From positions 1,550,001 to 1,614,000 of the forward strand of contig NZ_AP023054.1 of assembly GCF_019703835.1 (NCBI RefSeq): DNA of 64,000 nt, written 5' to 3'. The stretch's first letter is position 1, and each line of letters starts with the position of its first letter. The notes under the pieces were generated by a model. The model saw only the letters and a program-made list of their open reading frames with translations. It was not told where the DNA came from and did no database searches. Of this stretch, positions 5,422 to 23,669 are shown in pieces. The position numbers and the translations under genes were made by a program. The stretch comes from Thaumasiovibrio subtropicus (GTDB lineage Bacteria > Pseudomonadota > Gammaproteobacteria > Enterobacterales > Vibrionaceae).

Positions 5422-6809
5422 TTAAGTGCAGACATTAAGCCTTCAAGCTCTTGCGCTTGTTGGTTGAGTTGAGCGATCTCTTCAGAAGATTGAGCAATGA
5501 TAGCCGAGACTTGAGAGGCTTGTTCTCGTACCTGCTCGACACTGCTTGCAATGCTATCGGCAACACTGCCTTGTTGCTCGGCCGCTGTGGCAATCTCGGT
5601 GCTTCGGTCAGCAACATACTGGTTTTTTTCTGCGATATCGGAAATTTCTTTCCCCACCGCCAATATCAAGTTTTCGCTGCTTTGTGCTCGTTCGACGGTT
5701 GTCTCCATCACCTGTAAGAGTGATTTGCTGTCATTTTGGAGAGTTTCAATCATCTGCTGGATTTCGACTGTCGCATCTTGGGTTCTTCCCGCGAGGGTGC
5801 GAACTTCGTCAGCGACGACGGCAAACCCTCGCCCTTGCTCACCTGCGCGCGCAGCCTCAATGGCAGCGTTTAACGCCAGTAAGTTGGTCTGTTCTGAGAT
5901 ACTGTTGATTGTTGAAACAACTTCATCAATGCGAGACGTACTGTTATCAAGATTATTAACAGCGTCAGAGGCATTGTTGACATCAAGGCTCAGTTGCTGA
6001 ATAGATTGCTGTGTATCTTGTACTTTGGCTTGGCCGTTAACGGTCATGGTGTTAGCTGCCTGCGTATCTGTCGAGGTCGTCAGGGCATGTTGGGCCACTT
6101 CACGAATAGAAGAGGCCATCTCTTCGGATGCGCTGGCTAAGCTATCGAGGTGTTGACGCTGATGTTCAGATAGCGCTTCGCTATGACCGCTTTGCTGACG
6201 CAGTTGGCTACTCAACTGCTGAATAAGCGCTGTGGTTTTTTGAGTTGCCATCACCAACTGGTGTTCGCGTTCAGCAACTTGATCGATAGTGATCGCAATG
6301 GTGCTGAACTCATCACGCACTTTGAAGTAGTTCAAGCGGTTGGTGAGATCACCTTGGGCGAGCTTTTGCAGTGCGGTGTGCGTTGCATACATGGCACCGC
6401 CGATAAAGGTCATGATGTAGTAGATCGATAGAAAGATGACACCCAGTACAATCGCCAAGATGATTAAATGTGTATTGTCTAAGTAGCTCAACACATGCGG
6501 TGGTTGCTTAAGTGATAGTGAGTAACCGTCTACGGCATGTTGATAATCACCCGGACCCACCATAACAGGACTGCTCGCCAAGAAACGTCTCGCGTCGCTC
6601 TCGCTGATATTTTGCGCTTTAAAAAGGTGCGCAATGGTTTCCACTTCGTGATTTGCTAGCTCACTGCGTTGACTGTTTGCAGCACTGATCACAACCAAAG
6701 TGGTAGCGAGAATAGCGAGAATAGGCAAAATAAAGAGAAGAGAAAATTTTTCCTGAAGTTTCAGATGAATGAGATATTTGTCTATCCATCGAAAAGCGAC
6801 TTCTTTCAT
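5415..6809 (-). CDS. Methyl-accepting chemotaxis protein
   Basis: 464 residues. Transmembrane helices at about 22-43 and 114-137 enclose a short periplasmic sensor loop of about 70 residues, too small for a Cache or TarH domain. A HAMP domain follows (about 138-190) and then the long helical signalling domain with the conserved hairpin tip ([20 protein letters not shown], then [18 protein letters not shown]), which contacts CheA and CheW. There is no C-terminal NWETF-type pentapeptide for CheR/CheB docking. The ligand is unknown. The start has AGGAAG a few bases upstream. Confidence 0.93.
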
Positions 6810-6918
6810 AATGGGACTTCCTGATGCGGCTTTAATGTTGCTGTCGAGTTACTAATACGACGATTTTGTGTCAATTCTACAGGTTATTCGTATCAAAACC
6901 CGATTATAGAGGTGATCA

Positions 6919-7191
6919 ATGTCACAATATTGTGCAAAATTTTTGATAAAGGGACGAGTGCAAGGGGTCGGTTTTCGATTTCATACGGCACATGAAGGAC
7001 TTAGGTTAACACTGACTGGATATGCTCGAAATTTACCGAGTGGTGATGTCGAGGTTGTCGCTTGTGGCAGTCAAGCATCCATTGAACGATTAGCATTGTG
7101 GTTGCAGGAAGGGCCGAAGATGGCGAGAGTGGATAGTTGTATAAAAGAAGAACTACCTTGGCAACATTACGAGGGTTTTGCCATGCATTAA
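6919..7191 (+). CDS. acyP: Acylphosphatase
   Basis: 90 residues, the standard length. The family signature is present: KGRVQGVGFRFHT (phosphate-binding loop with the catalytic Arg) and GYARNLPSGDVEV (with the catalytic Asn). It hydrolyses carboxyl-phosphate bonds in the cytoplasm. An RBS (GAGGTG) precedes the ATG. Convergent with tusE; the neighbourhood acyP-tusE-yccA matches yccX-tusE-yccA of enterobacteria, which supports the assignment. Confidence 0.95.
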   Translation: MSQYCAKFLIKGRVQGVGFRFHTAHEGLRLTLTGYARNLPSGDVEVVACGSQASIERLALWLQEGPKMARVDSCIKEELPWQHYEGFAMH

Positions 7192-7196
7192 AATAG

Positions 7197-7224
7197 GCTC
7201 ACCCTATGTGTCCATAGAGTGAGC
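7197..7224. terminator. Hairpin between convergent acyP and tusE
   Basis: GCTCACCCTATG, a TGTC loop, then CATAGAGTGAGC: a 12-bp stem with one mismatch, lying between the two convergent stop codons. No U tract follows on the plus strand, so efficiency is uncertain. Confidence 0.5.
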
Positions 7225-7230
7225 GGGGCG

Positions 7231-7560
7231 TTACAAACACTTCGCGGGTTTAGGTAAACCAGCAAGCTTTGTCGCTTGTTTGGCGGGACCTTTTGGGAAG
7301 AGCTTGAAGAGGTACTTGGAACTGCCTTTTTCTTCGCCATATTTCTTCGCCATTGCTTTCACTAACATGCGAATAGCCGGTGAAGTGTTGAATTCGACGT
7401 AGAACTCTCTGACAAAGTGCACAACTTCCCAATGCGCCTCAGTGAGCTCAATGCCTTCTTCTAGCGCCAGCAAAGGCACCATCTCTTCTTGCCAGTCATT
7501 AATGTCTAGCAGGTACCCCTGCTTATCGGTTTCGATCTGTTTACCATTAAACTCGAGCAT
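7231..7560 (-). CDS. tusE: TusE/DsrC-family sulfur relay protein
   Basis: 109 residues, the usual length. The C-terminal penultimate cysteine (PAKCL, Cys108) is the conserved persulfide-carrying residue; blocks such as [16 protein letters not shown] are typical of the family. In E. coli TusE accepts sulfur from TusBCD and hands it to MnmA for 2-thiouridine formation in tRNA. The second cysteine used by dissimilatory DsrC is absent, which favours the tRNA role. It is separated from yccA upstream by a strong terminator. Confidence 0.93.
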
Positions 7561-18624: not shown

Positions 18625-20415
18625 TTAGAACTTACCGGCTGGTGGCCAGTTGGGGTTCTCTATTTCATCTTCTCCAACCGCGTCGTTGGCTTCTTTGGCA
18701 ATCGCAGCAGGTACGCAAGTTTCAGGGACCACGACTTCAACTAAAAAGTTTTTGTCTGGCGTGGCACGAATCTCTTCCATGACGGCAAGTAATTGGCCGA
18801 GGTTTTCAACTTTGCGTCCTTCTCCGCCAAAGCCATCAGTGAGCTTGGCAATCTGCCAGTTTGGCAGCTTATTATACTGGTAGACGTTATCGAGCAACGG
18901 ATCTTTATAATCTTTTGGCGGCTCTCTAAATGGGTTGGGGTTCACCAAGTATTGCTCTATGCCATAGATGCCGTTAGCGATCACAAAGACCACGGTGTTT
19001 AGGCCATAGGCATGCTGATCAGCGACCGCTTGGCAAGTTTCATGAAACGCGCCATCTCCGACAACAACAATCGCTCGCTTATCTGGGTTTGCTAAACCAA
19101 CCCCTGTTCCTGCACCGACGGAGTAACCAATCGAAAGCCAAGATGCTTGGGCGACAAATCCGTTTCTCGCTTCGATGGGCACAGATTGAGCGCCGATAAG
19201 CGGGAACCCTGCATCCACCACCAAGATATCATCTTGGTTAATCCATTGACCCAGTGTGCGATAGAGTGAGTCATAGTTGACTTCGCCAGTCAGAGACTCA
19301 TTGATAATGTGTGATTTCGGTGCTGACTGATATTTTTTGAGTGAGGCGTTAAGACGCAACCCTTTTAGTCGCATTGCTGGTCGTTTTTCAACGAGCTCGA
19401 TCATTTTATCGAGGTAGTCATCGAGTTCGACGGAAGGAAAATAGCTGGCACCCGCAATGACACCTTGATGGGCGGCCAAAATGGTGTGCTCGCTGCGGAT
19501 GTCTTGGTTACTGGTATCTTTACCCGTTGTCCATGCCCCAATTCCGATGAGACAGCCATCGTCACCAACAAGCTCTTTTAACGTTGATTGCGACAAGGTC
19601 ACACAGCCTTCGAAAGCAGGATGCGACTCACTTACCACGGACTTACTCAGGGCAGAGGTGACAAACTTGATCGGTTTGTCGGATTGATTGTGCGTGTTGA
19701 GTGCTTCCAGCAGGGCAAGAAACTTATCTTGTAGACCAAAGCGCTGCAACTCGATACCTGCCCAGAGTAAGACATTGGATTTCTTTTCAATCAGTGCCAG
19801 TGTTGCTTGTGCGGCGATATCGGCATCACTGACAGTAACTTGCTTGCCGGTGCCCGAAGCGAGTGTACCTTGTGGGGTGTGACAACACTCGCGCCATACA
19901 TCTTCACTGATTTCGAGGTAGACGGGCTGATGCTTAGTCAACATGGCCGTTAACGCTGAATCAATTTGGTAAGGCGCCTGCTGGGCATTGGTAATGCGTT
20001 CAGCCGCGGCGGTGACAGGGCGGAACATATGGATATCGACTAACTGGTATCCGGTGGTATGTGAGTAGAGTAGTCCGGTGTTTTTCTCTATAGCATCCTC
20101 TTTATTGGTCGGGGCGCCATTAATCAACACGACAGGGACTTTTTCAACATACGAGCCTGCAATGGTGTTAAGTAGGCTAAATGCCCCCACACTATAGGTG
20201 ACATAGACAGCCCCAATGCCCTTAAAGCGAGCATAGGCGTCAGCGGCGTAACCCGCACAGAGTTCATTGGCGTTACCTCCGATTTTTATCGGTGAGGAGG
20301 GGTCAGCTAAGATGGTGTCTAAGAAAGGGGCGGTGTAGTTTCCCGCTACCCCAAACATTTGCTCAAGTCCTAGCTCTTCTAAGCGTTGCTTTAAATAAGA
20401 TGCGACAGTGGTCAT
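18625..20415 (-). CDS. ThDP-dependent 2-oxo-acid decarboxylase family enzyme (indolepyruvate/phenylpyruvate decarboxylase type)
   Basis: 596 residues from the ATG at 20415, which has AAGG at proper spacing; a longer frame starts at 20469 inside the preceding gene. The fold is that of pyruvate/indolepyruvate decarboxylases: N-terminal Pyr domain with the catalytic Glu (GGNANELCAGYAADAYAR), a middle domain, and a C-terminal ThDP motif GDGAFHETCQA ... NGIYGIE. The double-histidine motif usual in decarboxylases (LHHT) reads YSHTTG, so the first His is Ser. It follows the amine oxidase gene by 10 nt, so it probably acts on the 2-oxo acid that enzyme makes, giving an aldehyde or, if carboligation dominates, an acyloin. 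Confidence 0.85.
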   Translation of the reverse strand: MTTVASYLKQRLEELGLEQMFGVAGNYTAPFLDTILADPSSPIKIGGNANELCAGYAADAYARFKGIGAVYVTYSVGAFSLLNTIAGSYVEKVPVVLINGAPTNKEDAIEKNTGLLYSHTTGYQLVDIHMFRPVTAAAERITNAQQAPYQIDSALTAMLTKHQPVYLEISEDVWRECCHTPQGTLASGTGKQVTVSDADIAAQATLALIEKKSNVLLWAGIELQRFGLQDKFLALLEALNTHNQSDKPIKFVTSALSKSVVSESHPAFEGCVTLSQSTLKELVGDDGCLIGIGAWTTGKDTSNQDIRSEHTILAAHQGVIAGASYFPSVELDDYLDKMIELVEKRPAMRLKGLRLNASLKKYQSAPKSHIINESLTGEVNYDSLYRTLGQWINQDDILVVDAGFPLIGAQSVPIEARNGFVAQASWLSIGYSVGAGTGVGLANPDKRAIVVVGDGAFHETCQAVADQHAYGLNTVVFVIANGIYGIEQYLVNPNPFREPPKDYKDPLLDNVYQYNKLPNWQIAKLTDGFGGEGRKVENLGQLLAVMEEIRATPDKNFLVEVVVPETCVPAAIAKEANDAVGEDEIENPNWPPAGKF

Positions 20416-20425
20416 AGTCATCACC

Positions 20426-22372
20426 TTATTCTTTGTCGAAGTAGCTAAGACGAATTGACATGGTTTCATCTATCTCGAGCTCAGCATCACAGTGATTGCG
20501 CTCTGTAGGCTCATATTGGCAGTCGATGTATTCACGAATAGAGGCAGTGGCCACTTCTTGATAGGCTTCTTTAATTGCACAGGAAGGTTGCTCTCCATGA
20601 TCTTTAATGAACTTCTCTGAGAACTTCTGCAAACCGAAGCCTTTTTCTAGTACTAGATCGGTAGAGCGCAGTGCACCTTCTACCCAACCTTGATAGTCAG
20701 AGAAGGCTTCACCACAGGTGTAGAGATTATCGAGTGGCTCGGTGAGGGTTGCCATTACTTCTCGGTCATTGGCACCTATCGCCCATTGGTGAACACCGTA
20801 ACCAAACTGTTGAGAAAGCTTGGTATCAAAACTGACTGACCCCTCCCAAATTCGCGCACTGGTCATTACTGGCTCTGGCACGAAATGGGTGTTGAAGATG
20901 GACTTAAAGTAGCGGGTGGCTTCTTTGACCACGGCAAGAGACGCAGGGAAGATTGTTTGCGGCTGTTTGTCGCTATATTTGTTTTGTAGTGGTGACTGGT
21001 ATTTGTCGCCTTTATTTTGTAGCGCACTCCAGTAGTTAATATTGAGGTAGTCGCAGTAGATGGTTAAAGCAGCCGGTGCCTTAAACTTACTGTTGCTGAT
21101 CTTAGTGAGTTTGGCTTCCAATTCAGGGCTAGGTGAAGCGCCACTTTGCTCGTATTGTAGTCCTGCGGTGACTTCATTACTGATGGAGTAGAATGGATAG
21201 ATAGAACCCGTGGGGAGGTCTGCGAAGTTAGGGCCAAATTCAACAACAGGTTGATTGCTGAGTTTGTTCCCCCACCACGCGTAGTCATAGTACAGGTTAA
21301 TTTTTAATAGTGGTTGATTGGTCGTTGATTGCAGGGTGTCCCAAAGGTTTGCTGCTTTTTCCGCGGGGAGTGCATTAAAGGCATCAGAACGTGCGAAGAG
21401 TTTCTCAAGCGCGAGTCGAGGTAGACACAGCAGGACCTTTTCAGCCTCGATAGTGAAGTGTTGGGGCTCGGCACAGTCTTCTGGATTCGTGTACTGGTAA
21501 GTGACTACGTAGCCGCCATTGTCAGTAGCTTTGATATTGGTGACCAAAGTATTGAGGTGGATACGCTCTTCGCCAACTTTCTCTACCAATGCGTTTGGCA
21601 GAGTACTAAAGCCTTCTTTAAATGTTCGGAACTCTGCATCGGCAGGGAAATCTTCAAGCAGTTGATAAGCCACACCCGCATTCATTTTTGATAGGAAAGT
21701 ACCGTTAAAGCCGAGTAGGCGATAGAGTAGGGTAATTGCCTCGTTGGTATACCCCATCTCAGTGAGCAGATCCCAAAGTGACCATTGGTATAGAGGGACG
21801 TTTTGCCAGCAGCAATCGAGACGGAATTTCTGCCAAAACTCTGGGCCTTTGTTTTTGGGTCTGTCAGTAAACTGCGGGTTCGCTTGTAGAATGCGATTAA
21901 AAACCGTATCGATGATCTGTTTAGGATTAATGTTTTGCTCGGCGGGTGCGAGATTGTAGAGTTCACTCCAGATCTCGAAATTGTTGCTTTTGGCTTCTTC
22001 GGCTGTGAAGCTTTCCCCGCGGAAACATAAACGATTGTTTCCGTTGCTGTTCATGGGGAAGGGGACGATGTCATTGACCAAGTCTAGCTCCATGAAAAGC
22101 GACATCAAATTGTCCATGTTCTCGAACAGAAAACGCATGCCGCCTTCTTCTTCTTTAACCACATGCCCATTTGGAAACTCAATCAAGTCTGAGTCTAAGC
22201 GACCACCCGTTCGGTTGCTCTTTTCAAGAATAACAATGTCATCAATATCGGTTTCTTCAAGCAATCGGTATGTACTGTATAGCCCAGAGACGCCAGCACC
22301 TACCACGAGCACTTTGGCTTTTGATGGAATACAACGTTGTTTACGCATGAGGTTAAGATCGACGTTATACAT
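20426..22372 (-). CDS. FAD-dependent amine oxidase (L-amino-acid/tryptophan oxidase-like)
   Basis: 648 residues. The N-terminal dinucleotide-binding motif VLVVGAGVSGLYSTYRLLEE is followed by the acidic strand end ILEK and NRTGGRL, the GG-doublet of flavin amine oxidases. The C-terminal FAD-contacting segment is LYTCGEAFSDYQGWVEGAL. There is no signal peptide or twin-arginine motif, so it is cytoplasmic. It would oxidise an amino acid or amine to the imine/oxo compound with release of peroxide. RBS AAGGGA is well placed. It forms an operon with the ThDP enzyme. The substrate is not readable from sequence. Confidence 0.85.
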   Translation of the reverse strand: MYNVDLNLMRKQRCIPSKAKVLVVGAGVSGLYSTYRLLEETDIDDIVILEKSNRTGGRLDSDLIEFPNGHVVKEEEGGMRFLFENMDNLMSLFMELDLVNDIVPFPMNSNGNNRLCFRGESFTAEEAKSNNFEIWSELYNLAPAEQNINPKQIIDTVFNRILQANPQFTDRPKNKGPEFWQKFRLDCCWQNVPLYQWSLWDLLTEMGYTNEAITLLYRLLGFNGTFLSKMNAGVAYQLLEDFPADAEFRTFKEGFSTLPNALVEKVGEERIHLNTLVTNIKATDNGGYVVTYQYTNPEDCAEPQHFTIEAEKVLLCLPRLALEKLFARSDAFNALPAEKAANLWDTLQSTTNQPLLKINLYYDYAWWGNKLSNQPVVEFGPNFADLPTGSIYPFYSISNEVTAGLQYEQSGASPSPELEAKLTKISNSKFKAPAALTIYCDYLNINYWSALQNKGDKYQSPLQNKYSDKQPQTIFPASLAVVKEATRYFKSIFNTHFVPEPVMTSARIWEGSVSFDTKLSQQFGYGVHQWAIGANDREVMATLTEPLDNLYTCGEAFSDYQGWVEGALRSTDLVLEKGFGLQKFSEKFIKDHGEQPSCAIKEAYQEVATASIREYIDCQYEPTERNHCDAELEIDETMSIRLSYFDKE

Positions 22373-22564
22373 TTTATCTTCCCTTAGAGTTCTGCCTGCC
22401 TATTTGGTCATGACTGACCGTGTTTAGGTAACTATAGTGTGTGTAAAAGAGACAAAATCTAGATGATCTATTTTTGTGAGTGATGTCTGTAAATTTGGTC
22501 AAATGTTATAGAGTTGTAAAAATACTTGCGCTTTAACCCTTTGTATTTATTGATTTTTGTTTTC

Positions 22565-22584
22565 ACCTGTCCAGTTGGACAGGT
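22565..22584. promoter_or_regulatory. Perfect 20-bp dyad resembling a lux box (LuxR-type operator)
   Basis: ACCTGTCCA-GT-TGGACAGGT is a perfect inverted repeat. Its outer hexamers ACCTGT and ACAGGT and total length of 20 bp equal those of the classical Vibrio fischeri lux box. It lies between two divergent genes, 125 bp before the start at 22710 and 192 bp before the start at 22372. A possible -10 (TATAGT at 22610-22615) places a start site about 47 bp from the dyad centre, near the usual LuxR activation geometry. No luxI or luxR gene is in the window. Another dimeric regulator could also use it. Confidence 0.65.
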
Positions 22585-22709
22585 TTTGAATACTGAGAAA
22601 ACACGTTTTTATAGTCAGGCTTGCACTCAATTCAATAGATTGGGTGAATAATTAAATCAAGGTAGGAGTAGTGGTTCCGTTGTTGCCTGAACAAAGACAG
22701 GAAAACACG

Positions 22710-23669
22710 ATGAGCAATAATCTAATTCGCGAAGTAAAAGCGGCAGGAAGACAGATCACTCAAGCAAGCGCTGAGGTGGAATCGACGCTTGGTCCACTGA
22801 GCCAACTTGTGGGGACATGGAAGAATGAACCCGAGCTACCGGGACGTGGCTGGAACATGATTGCCGTTCCGTTTGGTGGTGACAATTTAGGGTACCGCTT
22901 GTTGTTAAACCAATACAACGAGACCCTCACTTTTGACTTGGTAGATAAAGGGGTGCCAAACCGCGGCATAGCGACGTCTAATGATGATCGCGAAGATGAC
23001 CAGTTTCTTACTGCTTTGGCTTATGACCAGCGTATTGAACAGATAGCAACAGATGACTTTCCTCGCAGCGATTTGCTGAACCCTAATGGCTCGATCATTC
23101 ACCATGAGCCCGGCTTGTGGCTTAACATGCTGAACAAGACAACGAACCATGTCGACATTGCGCGTCTATCGACCATCCCTCATGGTGATTCTGTCCTTGC
23201 CTTAGGTCGAAGCGGTCAGTTGCCGGAAATGCCACGCGTGCCAGACATAAGTGGGCTGCCGATTGGTACGGGGGATACGCTGGAGGATGCTTATTTTGCC
23301 CCGTATCAGCGTTTTCATAGTGACCCATTTGAAGGTGTGTTTGACCCTGTTCATCCGAACGCGTTGCTAAATGAAGCAAATCAAGGCGTAGAGATAGAGA
23401 AAGTGACGGTGTTACCGGTTGATACTACGGTAGAAACGGGAGGCATCGCCAACATTCCTTTCGTGACGAAGCAAGCAAACGCAACGCAGCTGAATGCGAC
23501 CTTTTGGATTCAAGAGCTTAAAGAGAAAGACGCCAACGGCAACCCTAAATTACGTTTACAGTACTCGCAAACTGTCTTTCTAGAGTTCTTTAAGCGGACT
23601 GATGGTGTGCCCGGTCTCATTCGTTGGCCACATGTCAGTATCAATACCTTAGTGAAAGTCACTGACTAG
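22710..23669 (+). CDS. Beta-barrel-like protein, possible heme/fatty-acid-binding (nitrobindin/FABP-like) fold
   Basis: 319 residues from the ATG at 22710 (AGGA about 8 nt upstream); an earlier GTG at 22671 lacks an RBS. A segment LGPLSQLVGTWKN ... GRGWNMIAVPFGG resembles the start of heme-binding beta-barrel (nitrobindin/FABP-like) domains, and the end (RLQYSQTVFLEFF) would be closing strands. The protein is long for one such barrel. No signal peptide. It is divergent from the amine oxidase/ThDP operon and may share its lux-box-like control, so a binding or catalytic role in that pathway is plausible but unproven. Confidence 0.6.
   Translation: MSNNLIREVKAAGRQITQASAEVESTLGPLSQLVGTWKNEPELPGRGWNMIAVPFGGDNLGYRLLLNQYNETLTFDLVDKGVPNRGIATSNDDREDDQFLTALAYDQRIEQIATDDFPRSDLLNPNGSIIHHEPGLWLNMLNKTTNHVDIARLSTIPHGDSVLALGRSGQLPEMPRVPDISGLPIGTGDTLEDAYFAPYQRFHSDPFEGVFDPVHPNALLNEANQGVEIEKVTVLPVDTTVETGGIANIPFVTKQANATQLNATFWIQELKEKDANGNPKLRLQYSQTVFLEFFKRTDGVPGLIRWPHVSINTLVKVTD

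Follow-up and report, generated by a model that had tools for sequence, protein, structure and literature searches.

The closest described counterparts of the site discussed here are the operators of LuxR-family activators. For CviR of Chromobacterium the consensus is CTGNCCNNNNGGNCAG, i.e. CTGNCCN4GGNCAG (PMC12114271), and the sequence of the Vibrio fischeri lux box is also available for comparison (PMC4444344). In the genomes that we searched, luxI/luxR loci of Vibrionaceae carry boxes such as ACCTGTCAGATCAGACAGGT and ACCTGTAGAGTTGTACAGGT. As for the genes on either side of the site, an operon of Pseudoalteromonas luteoviolacea pairs an L-amino-acid oxidase with an indolepyruvate decarboxylase (PMC6316408). 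A survey of the literature on acyl-homoserine-lactone (AHL) signalling in Grimontia-like bacteria, on the lux-box consensus and on the dyad as a known operator returned nothing on the present system.

The site lies in a stretch of 64,000 nucleotides of Thaumasiovibrio subtropicus, hereafter the window, where positions 22565-22584 read directly as the 20-bp sequence ACCTGTCCAGTTGGACAGGT. It is a putative dimer operator, assigned to neither strand, of the form ACCTGTCCA-GT-TGGACAGGT, with two fully matching 9-bp arms separated by 2 bp. The preliminary description gave its position and its ACCTGT and ACAGGT ends correctly; it also called the dyad flawless, which goes too far, as 9 of the 10 pairs match (18 symmetric bases out of 20) and the two bases of the centre (GT, the middle of AG|TT) stay unpaired. 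When the 340-bp intergenic region was shuffled 5,000 times with its dinucleotides preserved, only 0.18% of the sequences contained a dyad of two 9-bp arms and a 2-bp centre, which argues against a chance inverted repeat or an RNA hairpin devoid of protein partner. Such an origin would fit the window taken as a whole, where five dyads of equal quality (at least 9 pairs in 10) are observed in 64 kb for about two expected; against it, the dyad stops 1 bp before a predicted -35 element, outside the predicted transcript, and has no T-run, so that it is not a terminator. We therefore hold chance or a hairpin to be unlikely. The dyad is a genuine and specific site of known form, of which the binder is uncertain.

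The dyad is intergenic and lies 1 bp from a predicted sigma-70 promoter, TTGAAT-18-TATAGT (22586..22615, plus strand), a consensus match that reads into the gene of a heme protein and whose -35 hexamer, TTGAAT, begins 1 bp past the end of the dyad; consensus matching found three promoter-type matches where 1.0 was expected in shuffles. The -10-like TATAGT already pointed out is indeed present (22610-22615), its distance to the dyad being 38 bp from centre to centre and not about 35 bp. On this promoter the centre of the dyad would fall at about -47, off the position near -42 known for LuxR-type boxes. Within 22300-22760 the minus strand showed no promoter-like match. From the centre of the dyad to the ATG there are 138 bp for the plus-strand gene and 202 bp for the minus-strand oxidase gene. 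Because the dyad adjoins the heme-protein promoter only, and stands some 200 bp away from the oxidase start codon, it is doubtful that this one site directly controls both transcription units, which the preliminary description proposed to be switched on together. Besides, the oxidase leader contains a 24-nt imperfect direct repeat, on the plus strand (copy 1, GAGTTCTGCCTGCCTATTTGGTCA, 22387..22410; copy 2, 22478..22501; 75% identical to each other); the repeats end in ATTTGGTCA and are a possible second regulatory site for the oxidase operon.

The likeness of the dyad to lux boxes was estimated with a matrix made from 11 boxes located at luxI/luxR loci of other Vibrionaceae, all intergenic and most of them situated 15-81 bp ahead of a luxI-sized gene or a luxR gene. 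The dyad scores 20.5 bits, within the range of true boxes (13-28), and ranks first among the 63,980 positions of the window, a result that is partly circular since the source boxes were first found by their similarity to the window dyad. A comparison independent of our matrix leads in the same direction: the dyad core, CTGTCCAGTTGGACAG, matches the CviR consensus at each specified base. This core is also identical to the csuI palindrome at 13 of 16 positions (PMC12114271), and the whole dyad to the V. fischeri lux box at 14 of 20. The lux-box-like form first attributed to the site—a 20-bp dyad with ACCTGT/ACAGGT ends—is thus upheld by the rank in the matrix, by the fit of the core to CviR and by the identity to the V. 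fischeri box.

We searched the genome (5.56 Mb in three contigs, 100% complete) for other copies of the site, as the first reading of the sequence had suggested. The exact pattern ACCTGTN8ACAGGT occurs once, as the 22565-22584 dyad itself; the exact pattern CTGTCCN4GGACAG also occurs once, inside the dyad. No second exact copy therefore exists in the 5.56 Mb. Among the near-copies of CTGTCCN4GGACAG, those with one mismatch and the first listed with two mismatches whose loci were fetched are all in coding sequence. The copies of ACCTGTN8ACAGGT with one mismatch are likewise all coding, except one, which is the LexA box AACTGTATAAAAAAACAGGT directly upstream of lexA (contig 1, 101300-101319; 1501-1520 in locus L002). 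CTGT-N8-ACAG is indeed common to the lux and LexA types of box. Outside this genome, the dyad with exact arms was found only in one viral contig, as two copies within coding-sequence repeats, which is irrelevant here.

The dyad could then be read as an SOS operator, as its core, CTGT-N8-ACAG, is also that of the gammaproteobacterial LexA box, and as the lexA box of this very genome was caught with the same pattern. The centre of the dyad, CCAGTTGG, is nevertheless GC-rich and not AT-rich, and a LexA matrix, made from E. coli boxes, gives it a score of 5.4 and rank 24 in the window, for 8-25 in the E. coli boxes. Although the core agrees, the composition of the centre and the matrix score fail, and we rejected the dyad as a LexA box, this origin being extremely improbable.

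Judged on its domains and residues, an AHL-binding receptor of the LuxR type is encoded in the genome. Exactly one protein has an autoinducer-binding domain, a LuxR with Autoind_bind (67 bits, cut-off 23) and GerE domains, at 2034482-2035315 of contig 1, about 462 kb from the dyad. Its best matches in the PDB are RhlR, QscR, LasR, CviR and SdiA. Eight of the nine LuxR signature residues, as named in PMC10134790, are kept (W57, Y61, D70, W85, G113, E178, L182 and G188), P71 being replaced by K; in the set that forms the AHL pocket (W57, Y61, D70, P71, W85, G113), five of six are thus present. A search of 325 further Vibrionaceae genomes gave no ortholog, the next best protein there having 31% identity; in a set of 369 gammaproteobacterial genomes, the remaining ones gave no match at E <= 1e-22. 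A lux-type box upstream of its own gene was looked for and is absent. Between this gene and a divergent gltB-like gene we observed a 15-16-bp inverted repeat, AACACTTCAACAACAT / ATGTTGTTGAAGTGT (L018 6233-6274), which might be an operator or a hairpin.

The genome contains no LuxI synthase (PF00765) and no LuxM/AinS synthase (PF17327), while the same searches were positive in six other Vibrionaceae genomes for the former and in one (G298) for the latter; the single LuxR is therefore a LuxR solo. Of the luxI and luxR genes that were to be expected from the preliminary description, one luxR of the AHL type is thus present and the synthase genes are missing. This bears directly on the proposed acyl-homoserine-lactone quorum sensing, in which a classical LuxI/LuxR pair would activate both units with cell density. 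Such a circuit would account for a dyad of lux-box form in a genome that encodes an AHL-type LuxR; on the other hand both synthase families are absent from an assembly that is 100% complete, the box is single with none at the luxR gene, and 202 bp separate the dyad centre from the start codon of the oxidase gene. The absence of LuxI and LuxM/AinS where the controls are positive leaves quorum sensing by self-made AHL unsupported, and we regard it as very unlikely.

The form of the dyad designates the LuxR solo as the first candidate for its binding, and the recognition helix of this protein makes the candidate doubtful. The helix reads TVRKHVSQ, to be compared with TVxFHxxN in the LuxRs that bind lux boxes: the position held by K in the solo is F in all 30 Vibrionaceae LuxR relatives, and the one held by Q is N in 29 of these 30, RhlR and QscR having the same F and N. 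This altered helix is the strongest evidence against the binding of the solo to a classical lux box, which on the protein sequence must be called doubtful. The dyad might instead be bound by a dimeric regulator of another family, e.g. a repressor of the TetR type whose gene lies in another part of the genome, the likeness to a lux box being then a coincidence. TetR-type operators have 7-9-bp arms and a short centre, like that of RutR, TTGACCAnnTGGTCAA. The perfect 9-bp arms and 2-bp centre of the dyad, more symmetrical than most of the lux boxes we found in Vibrionaceae, agree with such a regulator, as do the departure of the sole autoinducer-domain LuxR from the lux-box binders in its recognition helix and the single copy of the dyad, suggestive of a dedicated switch. 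Less favourable to it, the ends and the core of the dyad closely match the lux-box consensus, and reading the translations of the open reading frames around the oxidase, ThDP-enzyme and heme-protein genes revealed no HTH regulator. As none is recognised nearby, whichever regulator acts there must do so in trans. On balance we tentatively favour a genuine dimer operator for which a LuxR solo, responding to an exogenous AHL or to another ligand, would be the most plausible binder, though we give this reading rather less than an even chance and rate a regulator from another family almost as probable.

The genes around the dyad comprise, as first described, two on the minus strand diverging from one on the plus strand. 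The oxidase (20426..22372, minus strand, 648 aa) is an FAD L-amino-acid oxidase of the Pl-LAAO type known from Pseudoalteromonas; over its full length its sequence matches the characterised enzymes 7og2 (870 bits) and 7c4k (899 bits) of the PDB. Downstream lies a ThDP enzyme of the indolepyruvate/keto-acid decarboxylase type (18625..20469, minus strand), whose reading frame overlaps the oxidase stop, so that its true start is probably some codons further downstream. With 240 bits for a cut-off of 946, it belongs to the superfamily of the indolepyruvate decarboxylase equivalog TIGR03393 and was not retained as a member of it. The pathway, which had been taken as foreign to known clusters, is thus not wholly unrecognised, the oxidase being paired in P. 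luteoviolacea with just such an indolepyruvate-decarboxylase-like enzyme.

The "barrel protein" announced on the plus strand (22713..23669, 318 aa) belongs to the heme_bind_FMP family (NF040572, 315 bits, cut-off 150) and is, from its sequence and predicted structure, a heme protein of the nitrobindin fold and not an outer-membrane barrel. Its AlphaFold model (mean pLDDT 86.6) has a nitrobindin-like beta-barrel that aligns with the nitrobindins 2fr2 (Z 16.3 over 161 residues) and 3ia8 (Z 15.4), and His307, near the C-terminus, is invariant in 26 homologs. Homology to QsrP of V. fischeri was considered and dismissed, the proteome paper giving 11 kDa for QsrP.

The three genes together—hereafter the trio, 18625-23669 in the window—are kept across Gammaproteobacteria and Bacteroidota with differing gene orders: we found them in six Cyclobacterium loci, in Pseudomaricurvus and in the genomes G654 and G557, which belong to the same taxonomic order as Pseudomaricurvus (loci L043, L045, L047, L048, L049, L091, L052, L170 and L171). 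In G654 they follow the operon order oxidase-heme protein-ThDP enzyme, and the heme protein there is only 34% identical to ours. Within Vibrionaceae the trio genes are accessory: 2 genomes out of 330 encode the heme protein, the source genome alone has a near relative of the oxidase, and the one other genome of the genus that was searched (G001) is without heme-protein and oxidase genes. A foreign composition is not seen, the GC of the trio (46-49%) being close to that of the window (47.7%), and no plasmid-borne copy of the oxidase was found.

The dyad is absent upstream of the trio genes in all the trio-bearing relatives examined, which belong to other families or phyla; such an absence had been named beforehand as an argument against the proposed switch. 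Nor is there a conserved operator in the promoters of heme-protein genes at large: of 78 upstream regions, 4 hold dyads of at least 9 pairs in 10 (including an assembly-gap artefact made of N's), for 4.4% of random windows. The only other heme-protein homolog of Vibrionaceae (G299; 7785-8918 in L017) has at 7464-7483 a perfect 20-bp dyad, AACTATCAAATTTGATAGTT, between itself and the gene of a GerE-type regulator (6209-7324); 13 of its 20 bases are common with the window dyad and the differences are symmetric except at the centre. Apart from this, the heme_bind_FMP homologs of loci L029, L031 and L034 (about 7.9-9.9 kb) directly follow the gene of a different flavin amine oxidase, which suggests that the heme protein is a frequent partner of flavin oxidases; the neighbourhoods are mixed, an amine oxidase being present in 3 of the 86 scanned, trio loci aside.

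If the LuxR solo is the regulator, the system might work as follows. The dyad, just upstream of the -35 of the heme-protein gene in the region shared with the divergent oxidase/ThDP operon, would serve as the operator of a dimeric regulator; the orphan LuxR would bind it as a CviR-like LuxR-family box and activate the heme-protein gene, possibly the divergent operon too. Its ligand would come from other bacteria, as AHLs, or be of another nature, not a self-made AHL. The oxidase would then convert L-amino acids into keto acids and H2O2, the keto acids could be processed by the ThDP enzyme, by decarboxylation to aldehydes or by acyloin formation, and the heme protein may use or buffer the peroxide. 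Binding, activation and ligand are thereby what we infer, as is the chemistry, which is drawn from knowledge of the families.

In its strongest form, this scheme would be one of eavesdropping: a bacterium making no AHL would sense, through a helix-altered orphan LuxR and a single box, the AHLs of its neighbours and respond with a peroxide-producing oxidase/ThDP/heme module. We find it improbable as a whole; the bacterium may respond to neighbours' signals or be under a different regulator. Should the solo act through this single dyad, signal eavesdropping would be tied to an amino-acid oxidase module of the antimicrobial type with no AHL synthesis of its own, and the regulon, small and with a single target, would be easy to test. 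Regulation aside, the oxidase/ThDP/heme trio, spread over several orders and two phyla, constitutes a testable small-molecule pathway. The combination of oxidase and decarboxylase has a precedent in Pseudoalteromonas, and the gene set is ordinary but under-studied.

The locus thus shares features with several known systems and departs from each of them. With the CviR/CsuR boxes of Chromobacterium and the V. fischeri lux box, the dyad has in common the 20-bp form, the ACCTGT/ACAGGT ends and a core that fits the CviR consensus; here, however, the genome is without luxI, the box is in single copy, its binder is putative and its predicted centre is at about -47 instead of -42. The regulator is built like the LuxR solos QscR, SdiA and other orphan LuxRs, with the same Autoind_bind and GerE domains, no synthase and most pocket residues kept, and differs from them by K in place of P71, by a helix TVRKHVSQ that is not of the TVxFHxxN type, and by the want of any ortholog among the genomes searched. 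In P. luteoviolacea the Pl-LAAO operon likewise sets an oxidase of this family (870 bits to 7og2) next to an indolepyruvate-decarboxylase gene; Spondin_N genes and a two-component system also belong to it (PMC6316408), whereas in T. subtropicus the oxidase operon diverges from a nitrobindin-fold heme protein and no local regulator is recognised. Finally, with the nitrobindins (the C-terminal domain of THAP4, Rv2717c and AtNb) this heme protein shares the beta-barrel, over about 160 residues, and the invariant C-terminal His; it differs from them by its 318 aa with insertions and by its separate NCBIfam family, heme_bind_FMP, and is a predicted heme binder.
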